This document shows positions 184 to 18,432 of a stretch of 20,693 bases of DNA, piece after piece. The notes under the pieces are model-generated. The model was not told where the DNA came from, made no database searches, and saw only the letters and a program-made list of their open reading frames with translations. Location of the stretch: IMG/VR virus record IMGVR_UViG_3300049914_000065, positions 1-20,693 of that record, one strand, 5' to 3'. Source of the stretch: a virus. Every line of letters begins with the position of its first letter. Position 1 is the first letter of the stretch. The translations under genes and the position numbers were made by a program.

Positions 184-3100
184 TCAGTAGGTATACCAGT
201 CCAAAAACCGATAACCAAAGTTCGTGTCGCTATCGAACCACGCATCAAGTTCCCGGGAGAAGTCGGGGGAGAAGCGCCGCAGCCGCGCGACCGTTGTGTT
301 GAGCGCCTTGACGTGCTGCTGGCCGTACTTCGAGGCCACCGAGTTCATCGGCGCGTTGTAGTACTCCGAGTAAGTAGTGCGCATGTCGTTCCTGCGCCAC
401 TTAGCCTCGGCGAGCAGGAAGCTCCACGCGGCGACCCGCATCAGCTCGGTCTTCTGCGCCCCCTCGTAGGACTCCCAGTCGACCTTCTGCCACGCCTCAT
501 CTATGCGGCGCGTCTCGGGAGCGTCCTTGGAGAGCTCGCGCTTCACGGTGCGCATGAAGGCGTCGTAGGTCGCTTGCTTGGCGACCGCCGTCGCCCCGGT
601 CCCCATGCTGGTCACCTTGGGGGTGAGCACGAAGGGAATCGCGATCAGGCGGTCGGCGACCCCTCCGGCGATGACGGCCCCGCCCTTGACGCCCTTGAGG
701 ACCTTGTCGCGGTTCGCCCAGTAGGCGACCATCGCTGCCTTGTACTCGCTGGTCCCCGAGCCTAGAGCCTTGGCCTCGTTGTACTGGCGGTTGAGTTCCA
801 TCTGGATGGCGTCGAGCTTGGGCGAGGCCGGGATGCCCACCGTGTTCAGGGTCTGCGAGCCGATGAAGTACCACTGCTTGCTGCCCGCCGAGTCGATGAC
901 CGCCTTGAAGATGGCGTCGCGCTGCGCGGTCTTGACCTGATTGAGCTGGTCGACGTAGGGCGTCTCTGAGAGGAACTTCTTCGCCAGCTCGGGGTCGGGT
1001 ATCCACTTCGCGAGATCGAGAGCGCGCAGCGCGTCGGCGGTAGCGAGGACCTTGGGCTTGAGACGGCCCCACTTGGCCGCCTTGACCGCCTCAAGCGCCC
1101 CTTGGCTCTCGGGGTACGCCTGGTCGGCGTACTTGTCGAAGAAGACGTTCGCTACCGCGTAGACGTTGTAGTCGACCGGGTTCATCTTGTTGGCGGCGAG
1201 GAGGCTCGGCCAGATACCCCAGTCCTCGTTCGGGTTCTCGAACATATACATCAGGCGGTCATAGTCCCAGCCCTGCGTGCGCTTCATGTACTTCGCCGTC
1301 TTGTCGGCCCACTTCAGCGCCCGTGTGATCTTGGCGATGGTGCGCTTCCGTGCCTCGGCGCGTGGGGCGTCCCCGGCGTAGCGCACGCCGCCACTACGCC
1401 ACTGGGTCTCGACGTAGGTCCCGCCGTGGACGTCGACGTAGAGGTTGTGGATCGCCGCCTCAAGCTCGGACTCGGACTTCCAGCTCACCTTGCCGTTGGT
1501 GAACTGCTGCTGCCAGTCGTAGCCGTCGAAGGAGGCCCCCTTGGTATCGTAGTTGTAGGGGCTGACCCAGAACTTGAGCATGTCCTTGTTCTTCGGGTCG
1601 AGCTTGAGCGCGACCTGCTCCTCGGCAGAGGCGTCGTAGTAGGCGAGGTAGCGGTCGAGCCACGGGTTGTCCTCGCGGAGCTTCGCGGCCGTTGCGTTGT
1701 TCCCCTTGGTGGTGGCGTCGTAGTACTTGAAGAGCCAGTCGTTCTTCTCGGCGACCTCGGCCGGCGAGTAGCTCACCGTGGTCGGGTTCGGCATCTGCTT
1801 CATGACCTCTGCGAACATCGCCTCGGGGTGCGCGCCGAGCTGCAAGCCGAACGACCACCACCAGGGCTTGTCGCGGTGCAGCTCGCCCTCGGTGTAGTGG
1901 AGCTGGCCGAGCATCGCGTTGATGGACGCCTTGCGCAGGCGGTCGGGGTCGCCGAAGAGGGTCACGAGGGTGTCGCCTATCATCGGCATCTGGTCGTAGT
2001 CGGCCCAGCCGGTGATGCCGTACATGAGCCGCGCCTGCCGGGAGAAGGGGGCCATGCGCCCCGAGAGACCGGCCATCATGGCGACGTCGCCGTAGTCCTC
2101 GGGGTCACCGCCCAGCGCTCCGATGAGAGTCCGCGCCCCTCCCGTGACGAGGAAGCTCGCCTGCGGGAGGTTGCTCTTGATGATGCCGCCCAGACCTGTC
2201 CCTGCGTTCTCGTCGGTGGCGGCGAAGAACGGGACTCCGGGGACGAACACCTGATAGTCGCCGATGTTGAGGAACTGGTCGGGCATGAACTTCCGGTAGC
2301 CCTGCGTGTAGGTGGTGATGGCGAGCGGGTGCTTGAAGAAGGTCGCCCCCCAGTACTGCCAGAACTGGCGGTAGGCGTTGCCGAAGGGGATCAGGTTGCG
2401 CGTCATGTCCTCGAACATCGTCGAGGAGCGCGAGTAGGTCACCTTGTTGGCGTAGCGCATCGCGCGCTCGGCGGCGAGCTGGTGTAGTTCTTCGAGTCCC
2501 TCGGGGGTCCTAGCGAGCTTCGGGCTGCGCAGCAGTTCGGCGTCGCGCTCCATGTAGTAGCGGTCGGAGAAGACGACCTCGCGCATCCAGTTACTCATCG
2601 CCCCGAGGAGCTGGACGGAACCCGCCCGGCGGCTCTCGGTGAAGGGTACCCGGACGCCGTTGTAGACGTAGTGGAAGGGGTTCGCCTTGACGAGCATGTT
2701 GAGGGGGTTCGAGTTGGCCCCGACGAACGCCGCTTCGGGCGCGTTGACCGGCCAGAGGTACTCGTCGGGGACGCGCTTGAGGGCCTCGATGTCGGCCACC
2801 TTGGAGGTCATCGCCTGGCGCAGCTCGACGTTTCTGGAGATCGCCTCCATGCGGTCCTGCCAGAGCCCGGCCCACTCGTCGAAGGCCACCTTGTCGACGC
2901 CCGTGTTCCCGTAGCGGTAGGTGTCCTCGAGGAAGCCCCGGATGTCGCGGGAGAGGTCGGTCTGCTCGGCCATCAGCTCCTCGATGAACGCCTTGATGTC
3001 GCCGGGCTTCTCGGGGAAGGTTCCTCCGTTGCGCTCCACGAGGCGCTGCACGATAGGTTCGTTGGCCCAGCTCTTGAGGTCCTGGGCGAGGTACTCGTAG

Positions 3101-6100
3101 TACCTCGGGTGGGTGCCCTTGAAGACCAGCACCCAGCTTCCCGATTCTGAGGCCGTCCAGTCGTAGGCCATCTTGTCGTGCAGCTCGGCTCTGATCTCGG
3201 TCATGTCGATGCCGAGGTTCTTCTCCAGCTTGTTCAGCGGGCGCAGGCCCATCTTGCCGCGCATCCGGCCGAGGGTTCCCTCGGAGATGAGCCGGATGTA
3301 CTCGTCGCCGATGTTCACCCGGATAGGGAATCCGAGGGAGGCCATGACAGTCTCCTTGAAGATCGTCATCAGGGGTTGGAAGACGGCCTGGTCGGCGAGC
3401 GCCGCGCCACGACTTGCCGGTCCCGCCATGTAGGAGGCGAGGATGCGCGGGTTGTGACGGAACTGGATGCTCCCCCGGAGTTGACCCATTTTGACCGGCA
3501 CCGGGACAGTGTAGTCGTTGAGCACGTCGTGGGCGCTGTTCAGGGCCTTACGCTGCGCCTTACTGAGGCTCAACCACTCTACGTCGGCGAGACTCTCGAC
3601 CACGTCGATGGCGTCGGCCACGCGGTAGGTCTCAGCCTCGGCCTTGGTAACCGCGTCCTGCAGACGGTCCCGTTCGGCCTTCGTTATGCGCTTCGGCTTG
3701 GAGACAAAGTCGCCGCCGGAAACTTCCTCGAACTCTCCGACGACCTTGGCCCCGAGATCATCGACGTGTTTCGCAAGCTCTGCCTTGGCCTCTTCAAGCC
3801 GGTTGTAGGCGGTGGCGCGGGCCTTGCCGGGAGAGGTGACGAAGGAGCCCTCGGCCCCGGCCTGCGCCGTCCCCACGCCGTGGTAGGCGACCTTGCCGCC
3901 GGTCATGATGGCCCGGCCCTGCATCCGGTGGTAGAGGCGGGTGTACTTCTGCAGGGGTTCGAGCGAGCCGTCCCTGGCGATGATGTTGGCCTCGATCTCG
4001 TCGTCGAGTTCCTGAATGATCCTCTGGGCCTTGTTGGGGTTGTCCTCTTCCCAGATGCGCTCGCGGTACTCGCGCACCTTCGCCCACGACTCGTCGGTCA
4101 TCTTGGAGAGGCCCATCTTGGTGGCGACCATGTAGTTGTAGGACGCCCCTGTCTTGGCGCTGACGGGGTGCGTCTTGCCGTACAGGCTGGGGGTGATGAA
4201 GAAGCGCAGCATGTTCTTCTTGCCGAACCCGGTGCGGTAGGCGTGCTGGCGCAGGTTCTTTATCATCGCGCTGGCCCCGCCGTCTATCTCGATGCCGTGC
4301 TCGTCGCGCAGCTTGGCGAGGAGGGGCTCGACCTTGTCCGGGTCGGTCTCAGCGGCTATCTTGCGGACGAGGTCGCGCGCCCCGGCATTGGTGTCGGGGA
4401 CCTCGTACATCTCGGCGATCCACGAGGGGTCGTCGACCTTCGCCATGACCTCGGCGTTGTTGCGGAAGAGGACGTTGTACATGCGGCTCATGTACTCAGG
4501 GACGGGAGGCCCCCCGGTGAAAACAGGCGGGACGGTCGGAACTCGCGGCTCGGGCAGCGCCCCTTCGGTCTCTCTGAGGAGGGTCTGGTAGCGGTCGAAG
4601 AGGGCGTTCGCCTCGGGGGTCGCGTGACGCGCCGTGGCCCGTCCCCGGATGTTCTCCCACAGGGTGACGAGCCAGTTCGTGAAGGTGCGCATGAGTGGCT
4701 TGTACTCGACCGCCTTGAGAGTGCCCTTCTCGACGTACTCGGAGAAGTACTCACCGAACGCCTTGGCGAACTTCTCTTCGGCGGCCACCGTCCACGTCTC
4801 GCCTTCTCTGAGACCCGCCCACTCGCGAGCGACCGCGTTGTCCTTGGCGTTCAGCGTGCGGCGGAAGATGTGCCCCAGCTCGTGGGTCATCTCCTTCGGG
4901 CCGGAACTCTTCAAGGCGCGGATCAGGGCGCGACCGTCGGCGATGAACTGCACCGAGGCCGAACCCTTCCCGGTTCCCTTCATGGCCCCTGCGAGGCGCT
5001 GGCCGACGAAGACGTCGGTGGCTTCTCCGGCGTAGCGCGCGTTGGTCGCCGCGAGGATGGCGTAGCGTTCGACCTGCTCGGCGTCGAGCTTGCCCTCGGT
5101 GGCCTTCTCGACCTGCGTGAGCCACTCCTCGAGGGTGCGCGGCGGGGCCGGCCGTGGTCGCGGCACGAGAGCATCGATGAACTCCCCGATGTTCTCCCCT
5201 GATACCGTGTAGAGTGTGCGTCCGTCGGCGGTCTTGCTTTTCTTGTCGAGCGCCATGCCGGTCTGCTTCGCCGCCCTGACGATGGCCCCGACCTTTCCGG
5301 CGCGGACGTTCTGCGGGCCGAGGTCAACGAGCTTGAACTCGATGTAGGGTTCGACGCCCTTGGCCGGGTGGCCCTTGGGGTGTCCCGCGCCCCCGGCGTG
5401 CGAGCCGTAGGTAGGGAACTCGCCGTCGTTGAGGCGCTGCACGTAGGAGGGGAAGTCGCCCGCTCCGACGTCTACCGCGACGGGGCCAGCGGGCGTCTCG
5501 ACCTTGGCGACCTCGACCCCAGCTTCGTTCTTCGACGCGGTCTTCTCAAGGAAGGCGGCGTCCTCGGCGGTCAGGTCAACCTGCCCCGGCATCTCCTCAG
5601 GGAGTTTCGCCTTGGGAGTGGGGCCGGGGCCACCCTGGTCGATGGCTCCCATGCCGAGCTGCGTGTCGCCCGTGATGCGCTCGCCCTCGAAGGCGATGGC
5701 GTTCTGTCCTGCGACGCCCTCCTCGACTAGGCTCGCAGGGGCAAGGTTCCTCCCGCTGAGGATGTCGTCGAGCTGACCGTAGAGGAGCCGATGCTCCTCG
5801 GTCGCCTTCTCAAGCGCCGAGACGGCCCCCTTGCCGGTAGCCTTCGCCTTCTGCGCTGGCTGGCGCTGGAGGAACGCCCAGAGCGAGTCTTGGTCGACGA
5901 TGCCCGAGCCGGGGAACTCCGGGCCGATGATGTTCTGGGCAAGGTCGTCCATCGGAAGGCCGTTCTTCCTCGCGAGGTGGCGATGGGCGGACTGGTTCTC
6001 GGAGAGAGAGAGACTCTTGTCCCAGTAGGGCGAGGTGCTCGACTTGATGCCGCCCAGCTCATCGATGCGCGCCATGATGGCAGCGTCGTCGTAGGCGGTC

Positions 6101-8118
6101 GCGGGGACTTCGAGGAAGCCCTGCGAGGAGAGCTGGGGGTGCTTCTGCTCTAGGTCGTCGATGCGCGTGATGAGGCTCTCGGCTTTGGCGCGATCCGCTG
6201 CCGGGAGGCGCTCCAGTTCGGCGGGTTCGATGTCGACGTAGCGCAGGACGTCGGGACCGACCCGCTCGGAAGCAGTCCCGTACTTGCGCACACGGTAGGA
6301 CTGCTCGAGAGCGTGCCCTCCCCGGAAGGCGAGGTCCCCGGTGGCGCTGGCAACGGGACGCCCCATCGCGTCGAGCTTGGCCCCGAGGAAGAACTGCACT
6401 CCGAGCCATGCCGCGTCCCCTGAGTCGCTCGCCCACTGCGGCGTGTAGCCGTACTCGTCGACGGCCAGCTTCTGGGCCATGTCCTTGAGCGGGTTCTGCC
6501 CCCAGTTCTCCTGCAGGCCCTCGATCCAGCGCGAGCCGTCGATGAAGTTGCCCCAGTGGTAGTTCCAGAAGGCCCACTGCTCGCCCCTGCCGGGAGTCTC
6601 AAGAAGTCCTGCCTTGACCATGCGCACGTACTCGTCCACGCTGTCGACGCCCGCCTCGTCCAGACTCGGGAGCATGGAGGTCGAGATGTCGTAGGCGGTC
6701 GAAAGCCCGTCGCCGATGCCGATGAGCGGTAGCATGAGGGCCGTCACCCCCTGATGCGCGGCCCAGCCGATAGGGGCGGCGATGGGGTGCAGCCACTTGT
6801 TCTTCTCGGCGAAGTTCATCATCTTCCCCGGAGCGCCCATTATCATCCCGGCGATCTTGAGCGGGGTCATGGTTTCTTCGTCGTAGATGGCGCGCTCGCT
6901 GGCAGGGAGGCGATCGGGGCCGAACTTCATGGCGAAGGTGGCCCGCGCTGCCGAGGCCGACTGGCCGACGGGACGCCCGAACATCCAACTGTCGAAGAGG
7001 ATTCCCCTGGAGGTCTCGTTCTCGGTCGCCCGCAGAGCGTCGAAGACCCCCTCGATGGTCTTGCCGTTGTGCCAGTCGGGCATCGGTACGCCGAGCTTTG
7101 ACCCCATGTCCTCCCACGCCTCGCGGGAGAAAGGCTTCTCGCGCATGTACTCGAAGACCCGGCGCGCGTTGGCTTGGTCTTGGTCCTGTCCATAGACGGC
7201 GTAGGCCCACGACTGGCCCATCGCGTACATCCCCACGGCCATCAGGGCGTCAGGGTCGCCGTAGGGGTCGGTCGGGTCGTACTCGATGCGTGCCCCGCGC
7301 CTCTTGAGGCGCTCGGTCACCACGCGCAGGAGGGCCTTCCCTTCGGCGTCCCCCTGCAGGGCGAGGTCGTCGGTGGTCTCGGGCCTACGCTTCATCATCT
7401 TGACGAAGCTCTGCATGTCCTCGACGCTCTTCTCGTAGGGGACGATGTGAGTCGAGGCGAGGATGCGCTCGTTGCCCTGATCCGGAGCCTGCCCCGGAGG
7501 GAGGGCCATTCCGCGCCGCATCACGTTCTCCTCTTCCTCGCCGACCGGGTTCTGGAAGAGGTTGACATTGACGTCGGGGTGCAGGTTCTGCAGCGTGGGG
7601 TGGTTGTCGGGGTTGTTCCAGCGCTCCAGATCACGCTCATGCTGGAACTGCGCATTGAACCGCGCCGCTCCCTTGAAGAGCGCGAGGTAGCCCTCGTAGG
7701 TGAGGTCCTTCGTGCCGGGGTTCTGCAGCAGGGAGACGACCGCGTCGGGGGGCGCGAGACTGCCGGTGCGCGCGAAGTAGGCAAGGTTGATGTTGCGGGT
7801 CTGCAGCTCCTCCAGCGTCATGGAGAGCGACGGACCGCCCGCGACCGCCATCGCGCCCTTGGCGATCTGCGCGCCGGTGGAAACGAACGAGGAGACCTGT
7901 GCCTCGGGCATCTTGGGAGGCTTCTGGCCGACGTTCTTGGGAGGCTTCTGGCCGACGTCCCAGAGGGGGACACCCTTGGGCTGCGGGGCCCCCGAGTAGT
8001 AGGCGTAGTCGCCGGGTCCGGGGATGTTGTACTTCTTGCGGCGCTTCTTGGCGGCGATGCTCTCGCCCGTCACAGGGTCGACCGTGACCTTGTCGAGCCA
8101 GTCTTGGAAGTAGCTCAT
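184..8118 (-). CDS. Giant (2644 aa) virion-type protein with HELGH metalloprotease-like motif
   Basis: By far the largest gene here. The N-terminus is basic (KKRRKK at residues 24-29) and carries a duplicated VGQKPPK heptapeptide (residues 55-69). A zincin-like motif, HELGH, lies at residues 1079-1083; H1079, E1080 and H1083 would bind zinc and catalyse, and EEKFAKAFGEYF about 30 residues later could supply the third ligand (E1115), as in gluzincins. Hydrophobic stretches occur near residues 440-480 and again near 1900 (RNLIPFGNAYRQFWQYW). Regions such as RVNIGDEYIR (about 1600) resemble large phage polyvalent or internal virion proteins. It starts 3 nt after the previous stop without an obvious ribosome binding site, so translation is probably coupled. 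It is likely packaged in the particle and ejected with the DNA, but it might also be a tail or head-internal scaffold. The metalloprotease activity is an inference from the motif. Confidence 0.72.
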   Translation of the reverse strand: MSYFQDWLDKVTVDPVTGESIAAKKRRKKYNIPGPGDYAYYSGAPQPKGVPLWDVGQKPPKNVGQKPPKMPEAQVSSFVSTGAQIAKGAMAVAGGPSLSMTLEELQTRNINLAYFARTGSLAPPDAVVSLLQNPGTKDLTYEGYLALFKGAARFNAQFQHERDLERWNNPDNHPTLQNLHPDVNVNLFQNPVGEEEENVMRRGMALPPGQAPDQGNERILASTHIVPYEKSVEDMQSFVKMMKRRPETTDDLALQGDAEGKALLRVVTERLKRRGARIEYDPTDPYGDPDALMAVGMYAMGQSWAYAVYGQDQDQANARRVFEYMREKPFSREAWEDMGSKLGVPMPDWHNGKTIEGVFDALRATENETSRGILFDSWMFGRPVGQSASAARATFAMKFGPDRLPASERAIYDEETMTPLKIAGMIMGAPGKMMNFAEKNKWLHPIAAPIGWAAHQGVTALMLPLIGIGDGLSTAYDISTSMLPSLDEAGVDSVDEYVRMVKAGLLETPGRGEQWAFWNYHWGNFIDGSRWIEGLQENWGQNPLKDMAQKLAVDEYGYTPQWASDSGDAAWLGVQFFLGAKLDAMGRPVASATGDLAFRGGHALEQSYRVRKYGTASERVGPDVLRYVDIEPAELERLPAADRAKAESLITRIDDLEQKHPQLSSQGFLEVPATAYDDAAIMARIDELGGIKSSTSPYWDKSLSLSENQSAHRHLARKNGLPMDDLAQNIIGPEFPGSGIVDQDSLWAFLQRQPAQKAKATGKGAVSALEKATEEHRLLYGQLDDILSGRNLAPASLVEEGVAGQNAIAFEGERITGDTQLGMGAIDQGGPGPTPKAKLPEEMPGQVDLTAEDAAFLEKTASKNEAGVEVAKVETPAGPVAVDVGAGDFPSYVQRLNDGEFPTYGSHAGGAGHPKGHPAKGVEPYIEFKLVDLGPQNVRAGKVGAIVRAAKQTGMALDKKSKTADGRTLYTVSGENIGEFIDALVPRPRPAPPRTLEEWLTQVEKATEGKLDAEQVERYAILAATNARYAGEATDVFVGQRLAGAMKGTGKGSASVQFIADGRALIRALKSSGPKEMTHELGHIFRRTLNAKDNAVAREWAGLREGETWTVAAEEKFAKAFGEYFSEYVEKGTLKAVEYKPLMRTFTNWLVTLWENIRGRATARHATPEANALFDRYQTLLRETEGALPEPRVPTVPPVFTGGPPVPEYMSRMYNVLFRNNAEVMAKVDDPSWIAEMYEVPDTNAGARDLVRKIAAETDPDKVEPLLAKLRDEHGIEIDGGASAMIKNLRQHAYRTGFGKKNMLRFFITPSLYGKTHPVSAKTGASYNYMVATKMGLSKMTDESWAKVREYRERIWEEDNPNKAQRIIQELDDEIEANIIARDGSLEPLQKYTRLYHRMQGRAIMTGGKVAYHGVGTAQAGAEGSFVTSPGKARATAYNRLEEAKAELAKHVDDLGAKVVGEFEEVSGGDFVSKPKRITKAERDRLQDAVTKAEAETYRVADAIDVVESLADVEWLSLSKAQRKALNSAHDVLNDYTVPVPVKMGQLRGSIQFRHNPRILASYMAGPASRGAALADQAVFQPLMTIFKETVMASLGFPIRVNIGDEYIRLISEGTLGRMRGKMGLRPLNKLEKNLGIDMTEIRAELHDKMAYDWTASESGSWVLVFKGTHPRYYEYLAQDLKSWANEPIVQRLVERNGGTFPEKPGDIKAFIEELMAEQTDLSRDIRGFLEDTYRYGNTGVDKVAFDEWAGLWQDRMEAISRNVELRQAMTSKVADIEALKRVPDEYLWPVNAPEAAFVGANSNPLNMLVKANPFHYVYNGVRVPFTESRRAGSVQLLGAMSNWMREVVFSDRYYMERDAELLRSPKLARTPEGLEELHQLAAERAMRYANKVTYSRSSTMFEDMTRNLIPFGNAYRQFWQYWGATFFKHPLAITTYTQGYRKFMPDQFLNIGDYQVFVPGVPFFAATDENAGTGLGGIIKSNLPQASFLVTGGARTLIGALGGDPEDYGDVAMMAGLSGRMAPFSRQARLMYGITGWADYDQMPMIGDTLVTLFGDPDRLRKASINAMLGQLHYTEGELHRDKPWWWSFGLQLGAHPEAMFAEVMKQMPNPTTVSYSPAEVAEKNDWLFKYYDATTKGNNATAAKLREDNPWLDRYLAYYDASAEEQVALKLDPKNKDMLKFWVSPYNYDTKGASFDGYDWQQQFTNGKVSWKSESELEAAIHNLYVDVHGGTYVETQWRSGGVRYAGDAPRAEARKRTIAKITRALKWADKTAKYMKRTQGWDYDRLMYMFENPNEDWGIWPSLLAANKMNPVDYNVYAVANVFFDKYADQAYPESQGALEAVKAAKWGRLKPKVLATADALRALDLAKWIPDPELAKKFLSETPYVDQLNQVKTAQRDAIFKAVIDSAGSKQWYFIGSQTLNTVGIPASPKLDAIQMELNRQYNEAKALGSGTSEYKAAMVAYWANRDKVLKGVKGGAVIAGGVADRLIAIPFVLTPKVTSMGTGATAVAKQATYDAFMRTVKRELSKDAPETRRIDEAWQKVDWESYEGAQKTELMRVAAWSFLLAEAKWRRNDMRTTYSEYYNAPMNSVASKYGQQHVKALNTTVARLRRFSPDFSRELDAWFDSDTNFGYRFLDWYTY
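7911..7958 (-). repeat. Perfect 24-bp tandem duplication in the giant gene
   Basis: Positions 7911-7934 and 7935-7958 are identical 24-bp units in direct tandem. Being a multiple of three, the repeat keeps the frame and encodes the duplicated heptapeptide VGQKPPK with an Asn linker. Perfect DNA identity suggests a recent slippage or duplication event. Confidence 0.9.
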
Positions 8119-16887: not shown

Positions 16888-17013
16888 TCAGTCATCAGGC
16901 CCCCATTTCTCTCCGCATACCAGGCACACATACCACCAGCGCCCCCAATCGTCGGCTTCAGTAGTCCAGACCTCGGCCGATCCGCAGCGGGCGCAGGTGA
17001 GGGACTCGGTCAC
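16888..17013 (-). CDS. 41-aa zinc-ribbon miniprotein
   Basis: A compact protein, MTESLTCARCGSAEVWTTEA followed by DDWGRWWYVCLVCGEKWGPD: two CxxC(G) knuckles about 23 residues apart around a Trp-rich centre, a textbook small zinc ribbon. The GTG start overlaps the stop of the replication gene (GTGA), and its TGA overlaps a possible ATG of the next gene. The tight coupling to the replication gene could mean a replication accessory role, but that is inferred. Confidence 0.75.
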   Translation of the reverse strand: MTESLTCARCGSAEVWTTEADDWGRWWYVCLVCGEKWGPDD

Positions 17014-17576
17014 GGCTTGGCCTTCTTCACGTACCCGCAGACGGCGCAGTGCGGGCGCATCTGCTCATCCGGCGTCAGCGGGTTGTCTTCGTGCTTCTTG
17101 GTGCAGACGGGACAGTTATCCACAGGCGGCTTGCCGTTTCTGTGGATAACTCTGTCCCTTTTAAGGTTGGTTGGTAGGTCCTGTAGCGCGTTACTCTTGC
17201 GTTCGGTATGCGTACCGTACGCATACGCGCCTTTCTTCTCTCTCCATTCCTTGGCCCGCAGGCGGTTCTGTTCGCGCCTTTCAACGAGCTTGCCGGCGTA
17301 GTCGTACCAGTCGTTGATGCGCAGTCCGTCGCCGTTCGTGACGAAGCCTGAGTCGATGAGGGCCTTGATGAACTCCTGCGGATCGCCGTCCCAGTCGGCG
17401 CCGATGGCGATGTCCTCGGCCTCATATTTGGTCACGTCGCCGTCGGGGGCGTAGTCGATGCACCACCACCAGAGACAGTGCAGGTGGCCGATTGCCTTGG
17501 CGATGCCGCCGACGCGCCGAGCCAGCTTCCGCGTCTTCGGGTGGTCACGCAGGGATTGATGGCTTTCAATCCACAT
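17010..17576 (-). CDS. Winged-helix replication-initiator-like protein with C-terminal zinc ribbon
   Basis: 188 aa. Residues 1-95 (MWIESHQSLRDHPKTRKLAR, HLHCLWWWCIDYAPDGDV, then FIKALIDSGFVTNGDGLRI and NDWYDYAGKLVERRE) match the pattern of the DnaD/phage replisome-organiser N-terminal winged helix, which recognises origin DNA and recruits host helicase loaders. A basic linker (RLRAKEWREKK) leads to a zinc ribbon with CPVC (155-158) and CAVC (177-180). The DNA of the linker contains a 21-bp palindrome and an inverted pair of DnaA boxes, so the gene probably carries its own origin, as lambda O does. ATG 17576 overlaps the methyltransferase stop by 11 nt. A helicase-loader role is possible; a polymerase or primase is excluded. 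Confidence 0.7.
   Translation of the reverse strand: MWIESHQSLRDHPKTRKLARRVGGIAKAIGHLHCLWWWCIDYAPDGDVTKYEAEDIAIGADWDGDPQEFIKALIDSGFVTNGDGLRINDWYDYAGKLVERREQNRLRAKEWREKKGAYAYGTHTERKSNALQDLPTNLKRDRVIHRNGKPPVDNCPVCTKKHEDNPLTPDEQMRPHCAVCGYVKKAKP
17109..17158. other. Inverted pair of DnaA boxes in a long hairpin (candidate origin)
   Basis: A 50-nt inverted repeat. The left arm (17109-17125) is GGGACAG plus TTATCCACAG; the right arm (17140-17158) is CTGTGGATAA, an extra CT, then CTGTCCC. Each arm contains one exact DnaA box, TTATCCACA, at 17116-17124 and, on the other strand, at 17141-17149. The 14-nt loop holds GGC-TT-GCC-like internal symmetry. The repeat lies inside the replication gene, and TTTTAA follows on the plus strand. 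Confidence 0.7.
17206..17226. promoter_or_regulatory. 21-bp perfect palindrome, probable protein binding site
   Basis: Two perfect 10-bp arms, GTATGCGTAC and GTACGCATAC, around a single central C, within the replication gene and 47 bp from the DnaA-box hairpin. This is the form of a site for a dimeric protein, such as the initiator encoded here or a repressor. The words GTATGCG and GTACGCA recur around the early promoter at 20481 and 20437. Confidence 0.65.
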
Positions 17577-17580
17577 CGGT
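17566..17580 (-). repeat. Boundary repeat, copy at methyltransferase 3' end
   Basis: Reads ACCGATGTGGATTGA on the minus strand. It ends the methyltransferase (TDVD, stop) and contains the ATG of the replication gene. It matches 18422-18436 at 14 of 15 positions. Confidence 0.85.
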
Positions 17581-18432
17581 TAGCCCAGCCCTTGCAGCCA
17601 AGATCGTGAACGCCGCAGCCATTGATTGAGGCACTTGGGCGTTACCGAGGCCGCGCAGTCGGTCCACCCGCGAGGGAACCCCATGAGCCACCCGACCCAC
17701 GTAGGGTTCAGCGAGCCAGTCGTCTCCGTCCTCGCCGTCACGTCCGTCAAGGTCGTCCCCGAGTGTCGTCCGCTCTCTGTCGAATACGCGGCCGACCCAC
17801 TGGCCTTGGCATCTCCCTCTGTCGGGGTGGGGTACGTCTGCCGGGTCGCACCGCCACGGGCTACCCGTGTCGCCAAGTCGTCCCCGCCGGATCCCGGTCG
17901 GTTCGTTCTCGCGAAGTCCGGTCCCGACGGCGAACCCTTGGCGGTAGGCCAGAATCCAGAGCCGCTTCCGCCTGTGCGGGGCACCGACATCGTCTGCTCC
18001 CAGCACGCACCACTCCGCATCGAACCCTGCTTCGGCCAGGTCTCCGAGAATGGTTCCGAAGTAGCCGCTTGAGAGAAGTCCAGGCACATTCTCGCCGAAG
18101 AAAAGTGGCGCTCGGCTCTCTCGTAATATGCGAATGCTGTGAGGCCATCCATTGCGCTCGTCGGCGGCTCCGAGTCGCTTGCCGGCCTGCGAGAACGGCT
18201 GGCACGGGAAACCAGCCGTGACGATGTCGGCGCTTCCGGGCTCAGGGTGGAAGTCGGAAACATCGTCATGGATCGGCACGTCTGGGAAGCGCAGGCCGAG
18301 CACTCGTTTGCAGTAGGCGTCCCGCTCGACGAACTGTACGGGTTCCCATCCGAGCAGCATTGACCCGAGCAGTCCGCCGCCGATGCCCGTGAAGAGGGAG
18401 AGTTCACGCAAGGCCCGTCCATCAGTCCACAT
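17566..18432 (-). CDS. C5 cytosine-specific DNA methyltransferase
   Basis: 288 aa. It transfers a methyl group from S-adenosylmethionine to carbon 5 of cytosine. Motifs in order: I LSLFTGIGGG (11-20, cofactor binding), IV GFPCQPFSQAG with catalytic C77, VI GENVPG (113-118), VIII HRRKRLWILA (153-162), a short variable target region, and a C-terminal RLRGLGNAQVPQ (motifs IX-X). All are intact, so it should be active. No restriction enzyme is nearby, so protection of phage DNA against host restriction is likely. ATG 18432 overlaps the previous gene by 11 nt. The gene is bounded by 15-bp direct repeats, suggesting acquisition as a cassette. Confidence 0.93.
   Translation of the reverse strand: MWTDGRALRELSLFTGIGGGLLGSMLLGWEPVQFVERDAYCKRVLGLRFPDVPIHDDVSDFHPEPGSADIVTAGFPCQPFSQAGKRLGAADERNGWPHSIRILRESRAPLFFGENVPGLLSSGYFGTILGDLAEAGFDAEWCVLGADDVGAPHRRKRLWILAYRQGFAVGTGLRENEPTGIRRGRLGDTGSPWRCDPADVPHPDRGRCQGQWVGRVFDRERTTLGDDLDGRDGEDGDDWLAEPYVGRVAHGVPSRVDRLRGLGNAQVPQSMAAAFTILAARAGLTDVD

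Follow-up and report, generated by a model that had tools for sequence, protein, structure and literature searches.

In phage lambda, the repeats bound by the initiator and the adjacent A+T-rich region where the DNA opens both lie inside the initiator gene (PMC5043065). Iteron plasmids such as RK2 and P1 combine phased initiator iterons with DnaA boxes and an AT-rich region (PMC4980987, PMC5043065). By our comparison, lambda and the iteron plasmids with DnaA boxes are the nearest known designs to the locus described here. In the open-access literature, we found no paper on phage origins with inverted DnaA boxes, and none of the titles listed there concerns phage pentamer arrays, which is weak evidence of novelty in both cases.

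The window, that is, the whole stretch of DNA that was analyzed (20,693 nt), is a fragmentary 20.7-kb record from an uncultured virus. When its terminase was used to look for close relatives, a single remote match came back. Residues 1–128 of its rep gene product (Rep) match the phrog_9474 profile (replication initiation protein) with an E value of 1.2e-39, which places Rep in that family and bears out an earlier reading of the locus as a replication gene. Rep consists of a conserved N-terminal domain, a disordered linker, and a short CxxC-rich C-terminus, the Zn-ribbon matches of the protein being weak and below the cut-off. In the structure model, most of the N-terminal domain has pLDDT above 90, and from residue 137 onward the values are mostly below 50; because of this, the linker looks free to act as a DNA signal. 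Fold comparison gave weak MarR-like winged-helix matches at best (E above 0.1), and no relative of Rep was found in the PDB by sequence. The nearest relative that we found matches at 60%, in a stretch confined to the N-terminal domain, and the protein sequence of the linker is not conserved. Directly upstream of rep is a C5-cytosine methyltransferase gene (window 17566–18432, minus strand; Pfam E value of 1.9e-33), and methyltransferases are also found near rep in the related loci L362 and L011 and in phages Lagaffe and Shimadzu. Elsewhere, a 2644-aa protein with a HELGH motif (window 184–8118, minus strand) adjoins the portal and terminase and has no Pfam family match. See Table 1 for the features discussed below.

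Table 1. Features of the rep region, in window coordinates.
Feature	Position	Strand	Basis
rep gene, 188 aa, phage replication initiation protein	17010..17576	-	phrog_9474 profile match
Whole inverted repeat, including outer arms GGGACAG/CTGTCCC	17109..17158		Sequence and fold computations
DnaA box 1	17116..17124	+	Exact TTATCCACA
DnaA box 2	17141..17149	-	Exact TTATCCACA, inverted relative to box 1, gap 16 nt
AT-rich stretch, candidate unwinding region	17137..17200		40-nt minimum GC 0.40 vs window mean ~0.64
A/C tract ACCTACCAACCAACCT, tetramer form of the ACMNN array	17164..17179	-	4 x ACMN
Three ACGC cores, putative 11-bp iterons	17188..17213	-	Exact 11-nt steps: 17210-17213, 17199-17202, 17188-17191
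Perfect palindrome GTATGCGTAC-C-GTACGCATAC, putative initiator (Rep) site	17206..17226		Palindrome scan and relatives

Two exact, inverted DnaA boxes lie within a hairpin in the linker-coding part of rep. The plus strand at 17109–17158 reads GGGACAG TTATCCACAG GCGGCTTGCCGTTT CTGTGGATAA CT CTGTCCC, in which the left arm (GGGACAG-TTATCCACAG, 17109–17125) and the right arm (CTGTGGATAA-CT-CTGTCCC, 17140–17158) are 17 and 19 nt long and differ solely by a 2-nt AG/CT step. The perfect core is 12 bp (17114–17125 and 17140–17151) with a loop of 14 nt, and its arm is the only perfect one of that length within 60 nt in the window. There is no further TTATCCACA in the 20,693 bases, even with one mismatch tolerated. 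The expectation with one mismatch is 1.13 matches in the window, and what is unusual is the exactness and the pairing. When the protein was held fixed and codons were drawn by the phage’s own usage, both boxes appeared in 4 of 200,000 synonymous samples; therefore, chance is a poor explanation of both boxes. The box segment uses rare codons (AAA 5%, AGG 8%, AGA 5%, GTT 5%, CCT 11%, GAT 9%), and the inverted repeat encodes residues 140–156 of the 188, nearly all of them with pLDDT below 50 (137–154). The first-pass annotation had described this pair, its very low chance probability, its outward symmetry through GGGACAG/CTGTCCC, and its place over linker residues at about 140–156, all of which our analysis upheld. 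Consensus boxes of the kind expected at a DnaA-dependent origin are thus present in two exact copies, although this consensus may not be the host’s own.

The inverted repeat is also predicted to fold as a single strand, with -17.7 kcal/mol for DNA (z -5.3) and -30 kcal/mol for the coding-strand RNA (z -6.1). The stable DNA fold could permit a different use of the boxes, in which the stem of a single-stranded hairpin would supply one duplex DnaA box from which DnaA loads DnaB. This would be as at the ABC-primosome A-site, where a DnaA box in a stem suffices for DnaA-dependent DnaB loading on SSB-coated single-stranded DNA (PMC6127211). The chief reason to entertain such a hairpin is that the outer arms make the stem longer than DnaA boxes would require. 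We looked for comparable pairs in viral contigs, where GTTATCCACA N4–34 TGTGGATAAC occurs in at least 120 stretches, whereas the same pattern built from the reversed word gave 1; these counts are lower bounds from a sample that may be uneven, and the word was longer in one of the two scans for inverted pairs. Among the matches listed, gap lengths cluster at 4–7, 12–18, 22–25, and 34, and 13–17 is the commonest class, which includes the window’s gap of 16. A Rayleigh test at period 10 on the 49 listed pairs that remained after the strictest de-duplication gave p ~1e-6 with a preferred phase of ~5; this period was picked after seeing the gaps, and the best period over a range still beats all 500 uniform-gap simulations. 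Everted pairs listed prefer a phase of ~9–10. Because the gaps follow a 10-bp rule, the proteins would sit on duplex DNA in a fixed rotational relation, and this phasing, a property of the class and not of this single site, favors duplex DnaA binding over a hairpin, for which loop size would not require it. Furthermore, ungapped pairing extends merely 0–3 bp outward in the viral pairs listed and GGGACAG is not shared among them, and L477, a distant relative described below, has a single box with no partner to form a stem. A hairpin function is, on balance, unlikely.

Inverted pairs in viral DNA lie mostly outside ORFs (60 of the 85 listed, with 21 inside). The ORFs adjoining them (L026–L145, L263–L361) often match terminase families. 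Among the 110 such ORFs listed, the small-subunit family phrog_1482 has 6 members and several large-subunit families have 2–4 each, with overlap between families, and 110 ORFs more than 3 kb away gave one terminase match among the 25 families listed.

Relatives of Rep were gathered from viral contigs and bacterial genomes, many of them Firmicutes, yielding 102 non-redundant genes with the window included. A level of 14 matches in 16 was reached by 92 gene-lag pairs among 47 relatives, compared with 0–2 in Markov sequences. Across the 102 genes, a lag of 11 is the commonest and the lag is a multiple of 11 in 52. The strong repeats all lie at nt 300–700, directly after the N-terminal domain, with none in the first 300; examples are AGTCACGCGCC in L362, CGGACGACCAG in L380, and TGTCACGTGACGGTCACGTGACA in L367. 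The repeats are followed by a tandem ACMNN array (median position nt 427), with at least four consecutive units in 68 of the 102 genes and at least five in 61 (0.2 expected). The same test at other steps found 2 genes at step 3, 1 at step 6, none at step 7, and 10 at step 4, the last being a tetramer form that includes the window. Because neither 11 nor 5 is divisible by the codon length, these repeats are DNA signals and not protein repeats. The rep of the cultured Paenibacillus phage Harrison, at 37040–37927 of NC_028746.1, contains six pentamers along with GTCACGCG-type sites, has a weak lag-11 match (10/16), and adjoins a gene for a DnaC-like loader. In several relatives, Rep is likewise accompanied by a DnaC-like loader, by a G39P-like protein, or by DnaB. 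The cultured relatives Lagaffe and Shimadzu are without the pentamer array, so the module is common, not universal.

Two further kinds of sequence were seen in this part of the gene. Stretches of TAGTAGTAG or ACTACTACT directly follow the ACMNN array in L373, L377, L439, L398, and L380 and resemble DnaA-trios, though their period of 3 is that of codons and they may therefore be protein-level. Additionally, the linker of L001 and L368 holds an HNH-like stretch (CRYCGK...DHIDPNGP, CCRSCHSRKG) where others hold the origin module, and L477 has an HNH-like stretch ahead of its tract.

The window holds elements of the same kind. It has only two perfect palindromes with arms of at least 10 and a loop of at most 20, namely the DnaA hairpin and, 54 nt away, the palindrome at 17206–17226, which is placed similarly in the gene to the repeats of L367 and L385 and has the same one-base-center design. 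A triplet of ACGC cores at 11-nt steps occurred at the position of the iterons in 6 of 3000 Markov genes, a somewhat optimistic chance figure, as are those for the window’s tract, since both triplet and tetramer tract were spotted by eye before scoring. The iterons are weakly alike, sharing only the ACGC core, and end in a family-like junction, GTAACGCGCTAC, that contains GCTAC and has counterparts in L008, L373, and L409 (GTAACGCGCCTAC) and in L386 (GTAACGCTACTAC). At most 2 consecutive ACMNN pentamers are present, which falls short of the four or more that mark the array elsewhere, but 4 ACMN tetramers stand at the expected place. The AT-rich stretch adjoins the repeats, overlaps the DnaA hairpin, and is equaled or exceeded only near 150–240 of the window. 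On the coding strand, the order is GTATGCGTAC G GTACGCATACC GAACGCAAGAG TAACGCGCTAC AGG ACCTACCAACCAACCT TAAAAGGGACAGAG TTATCCACA. Judged by its sequence, the window is best described as having a short and rather degenerate form of the family’s module, with an inverted DnaA pair directly after it, and the initiator’s own sites are probably the repeats at ~17186–17226, not the DnaA boxes. GC skew marks no origin in the window or in phage Harrison, where most genes run one way.

None of the other 101 non-redundant genes of the Rep family has an exact DnaA box. On this ground, we rejected the boxes as Rep’s own word, and the idea in the first-pass annotation that a phage initiator might use the same word is unlikely, as the only relative examined with that word in its gene is L477. 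In the rep of L477, ACCTAACCTAACCTTACCTAACCTAACC is followed after 26 nt by one TTATCCACA, in the same order and on the same strand as in the window. This gene came from a targeted scan for the pattern, and the rough chance of such a match in the family is a few times per hundred (31 positions, 4^9, a few hundred genes); it is supporting evidence, not independent proof of frequency. L477 is the sole Rep gene among seven tract-plus-box matches examined in viral contigs, and the rest look like chance. In the linker of L200, a more remote Rep (phrog_2447), there is an everted exact box pair and then repeated AGACGC. Because the other family members examined are without the box pair, it would be dispensable for the family origin. 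We also considered that the boxes substitute for a missing helicase-loader gene. We rejected this idea as uninformative, since 26 of 42 longer loci, the window and L477 among them, have no detectable loader or helicase homolog.

The absence of the inverted pair from relatives, together with the disordered linker, could also mean that the pair has no function and arose by accident, through an inverted duplication or template switch that made a quasi-palindrome from one box. The arms are identical past the boxes save for the 2-nt AG difference, a pattern that could result from template switching. However, an exact consensus box would first have to arise by chance, directly after an origin-like module, and the box of L477 stands at the corresponding place. 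The gap is also within the preferred phased class. We regard an accidental origin as improbable.

DnaA is a transcription factor as well. Bound at the pair, it might limit rep transcription or translation, or the very stable RNA hairpin might do so, with no part in an origin. Such a regulatory element is quite unlikely in our estimate. The site lies within the coding sequence ~420 nt from the start, not at any promoter or start codon; no T run follows it on the coding strand; a terminator scan (loops 3–8 only) omitted it; and it sits directly after the family’s repeat and tract module. A transcription terminator proper was rejected given the short T run, the wrong strand for these genes, and its absence from the scan list. 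No known RNA family was found at the site.

The reading that we favor, and think probable, is an in-gene origin at ~17109–17226 at which Rep would bind the repeats, opening would occur in the tract and the AT-rich DNA, and host DnaA at the box pair would help. First, the N-terminal domain of Rep would bind the palindrome and the 11-bp-phased repeats (17188–17226). This binding would strain or open the neighboring strand-biased A/C tract and AT-rich DNA (17137–17200). The inverted consensus boxes (17116–17149) would then be bound, as duplex DNA, by two host DnaA molecules at a fixed rotation to each other, which would assist the opening and recruit the host’s DnaB helicase. The first two steps would be common to the Rep family, and the DnaA step would be an addition in this phage and, in a one-box form, in L477. 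We infer these binding and opening events from the elements, their DNA-level nature and order, their place in the family, and the phasing. That the family module by itself serves as an origin is likely; the DnaA role we rate lower, although host DnaA binding at the pair is plausible and fits the phased pairs elsewhere. The proposal in the first-pass annotation thus stands in part: there is good support, mainly from the family’s 11-nt repeats and ACMNN array, for an origin within the gene itself as in lambda O, and the phage initiator using the box word is the part that looks unlikely.

More tentatively, the widespread Rep family may have, within its own gene, an origin built of 11-bp iterons and an ACMNN array that is DnaA-trio-like, with the phage initiator reading one exposed strand pentamer by pentamer. 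It is a possible, though doubtful, extension of this reading that the present phage shortened the array, added a host DnaA pair, and hands helicase loading to the host. Equally tentative is its last element, by which inverted DnaA pairs in helical phase would belong to the standard makeup of many phage origins.

The module makes origin location testable in many unstudied phages from sequence alone, and a cultured relative, Harrison, exists. It is a case of coding sequence doubling as a DNA signal, at 11- and 5-nt steps, and it suggests a way in which a phage origin could come to need host DnaA or cease to need it. From the phased inverted pairs follows a simple rule of geometry for contact between DnaA molecules on duplex DNA.

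Among known systems, Francisella phage KIRK resembles this locus in having a putative origin with repeats that was found in analyzing replication gene ORF43; the passages on that origin make no mention of DnaA boxes, of an 11-bp step, or of a pentamer array (PMC7924643). The DnaA-trio or DnaD recognition element of bacterial oriC is, like the array here, a short strand-biased tandem motif beside double-strand initiator sites (PMC10201434), with a step of 3, whereas here the step is 5 (or 4) and the consensus is ACMNN. The ABC-primosome A-site also places a DnaA box in a potential hairpin stem (PMC6127211), and a stable hairpin is found here, but the A-site has one box on single-stranded DNA, whereas this locus has a box in each arm and the related pairs show helical phasing. 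The set of putative elements is that of the iteron plasmids RK2 and P1, except that here it lies in a phage coding region with only two boxes, which are inverted. Finally, the iterons of lambda gene O are 19-bp and near-palindromic, unlike the 11-bp-step repeats, strand-biased tract, and DnaA boxes seen here, and Rep matches phrog_9474 with no lambda O family match in profile searches. Nevertheless, repeats and AT-rich DNA stand in the same relation within the initiator gene in both (PMC5043065).
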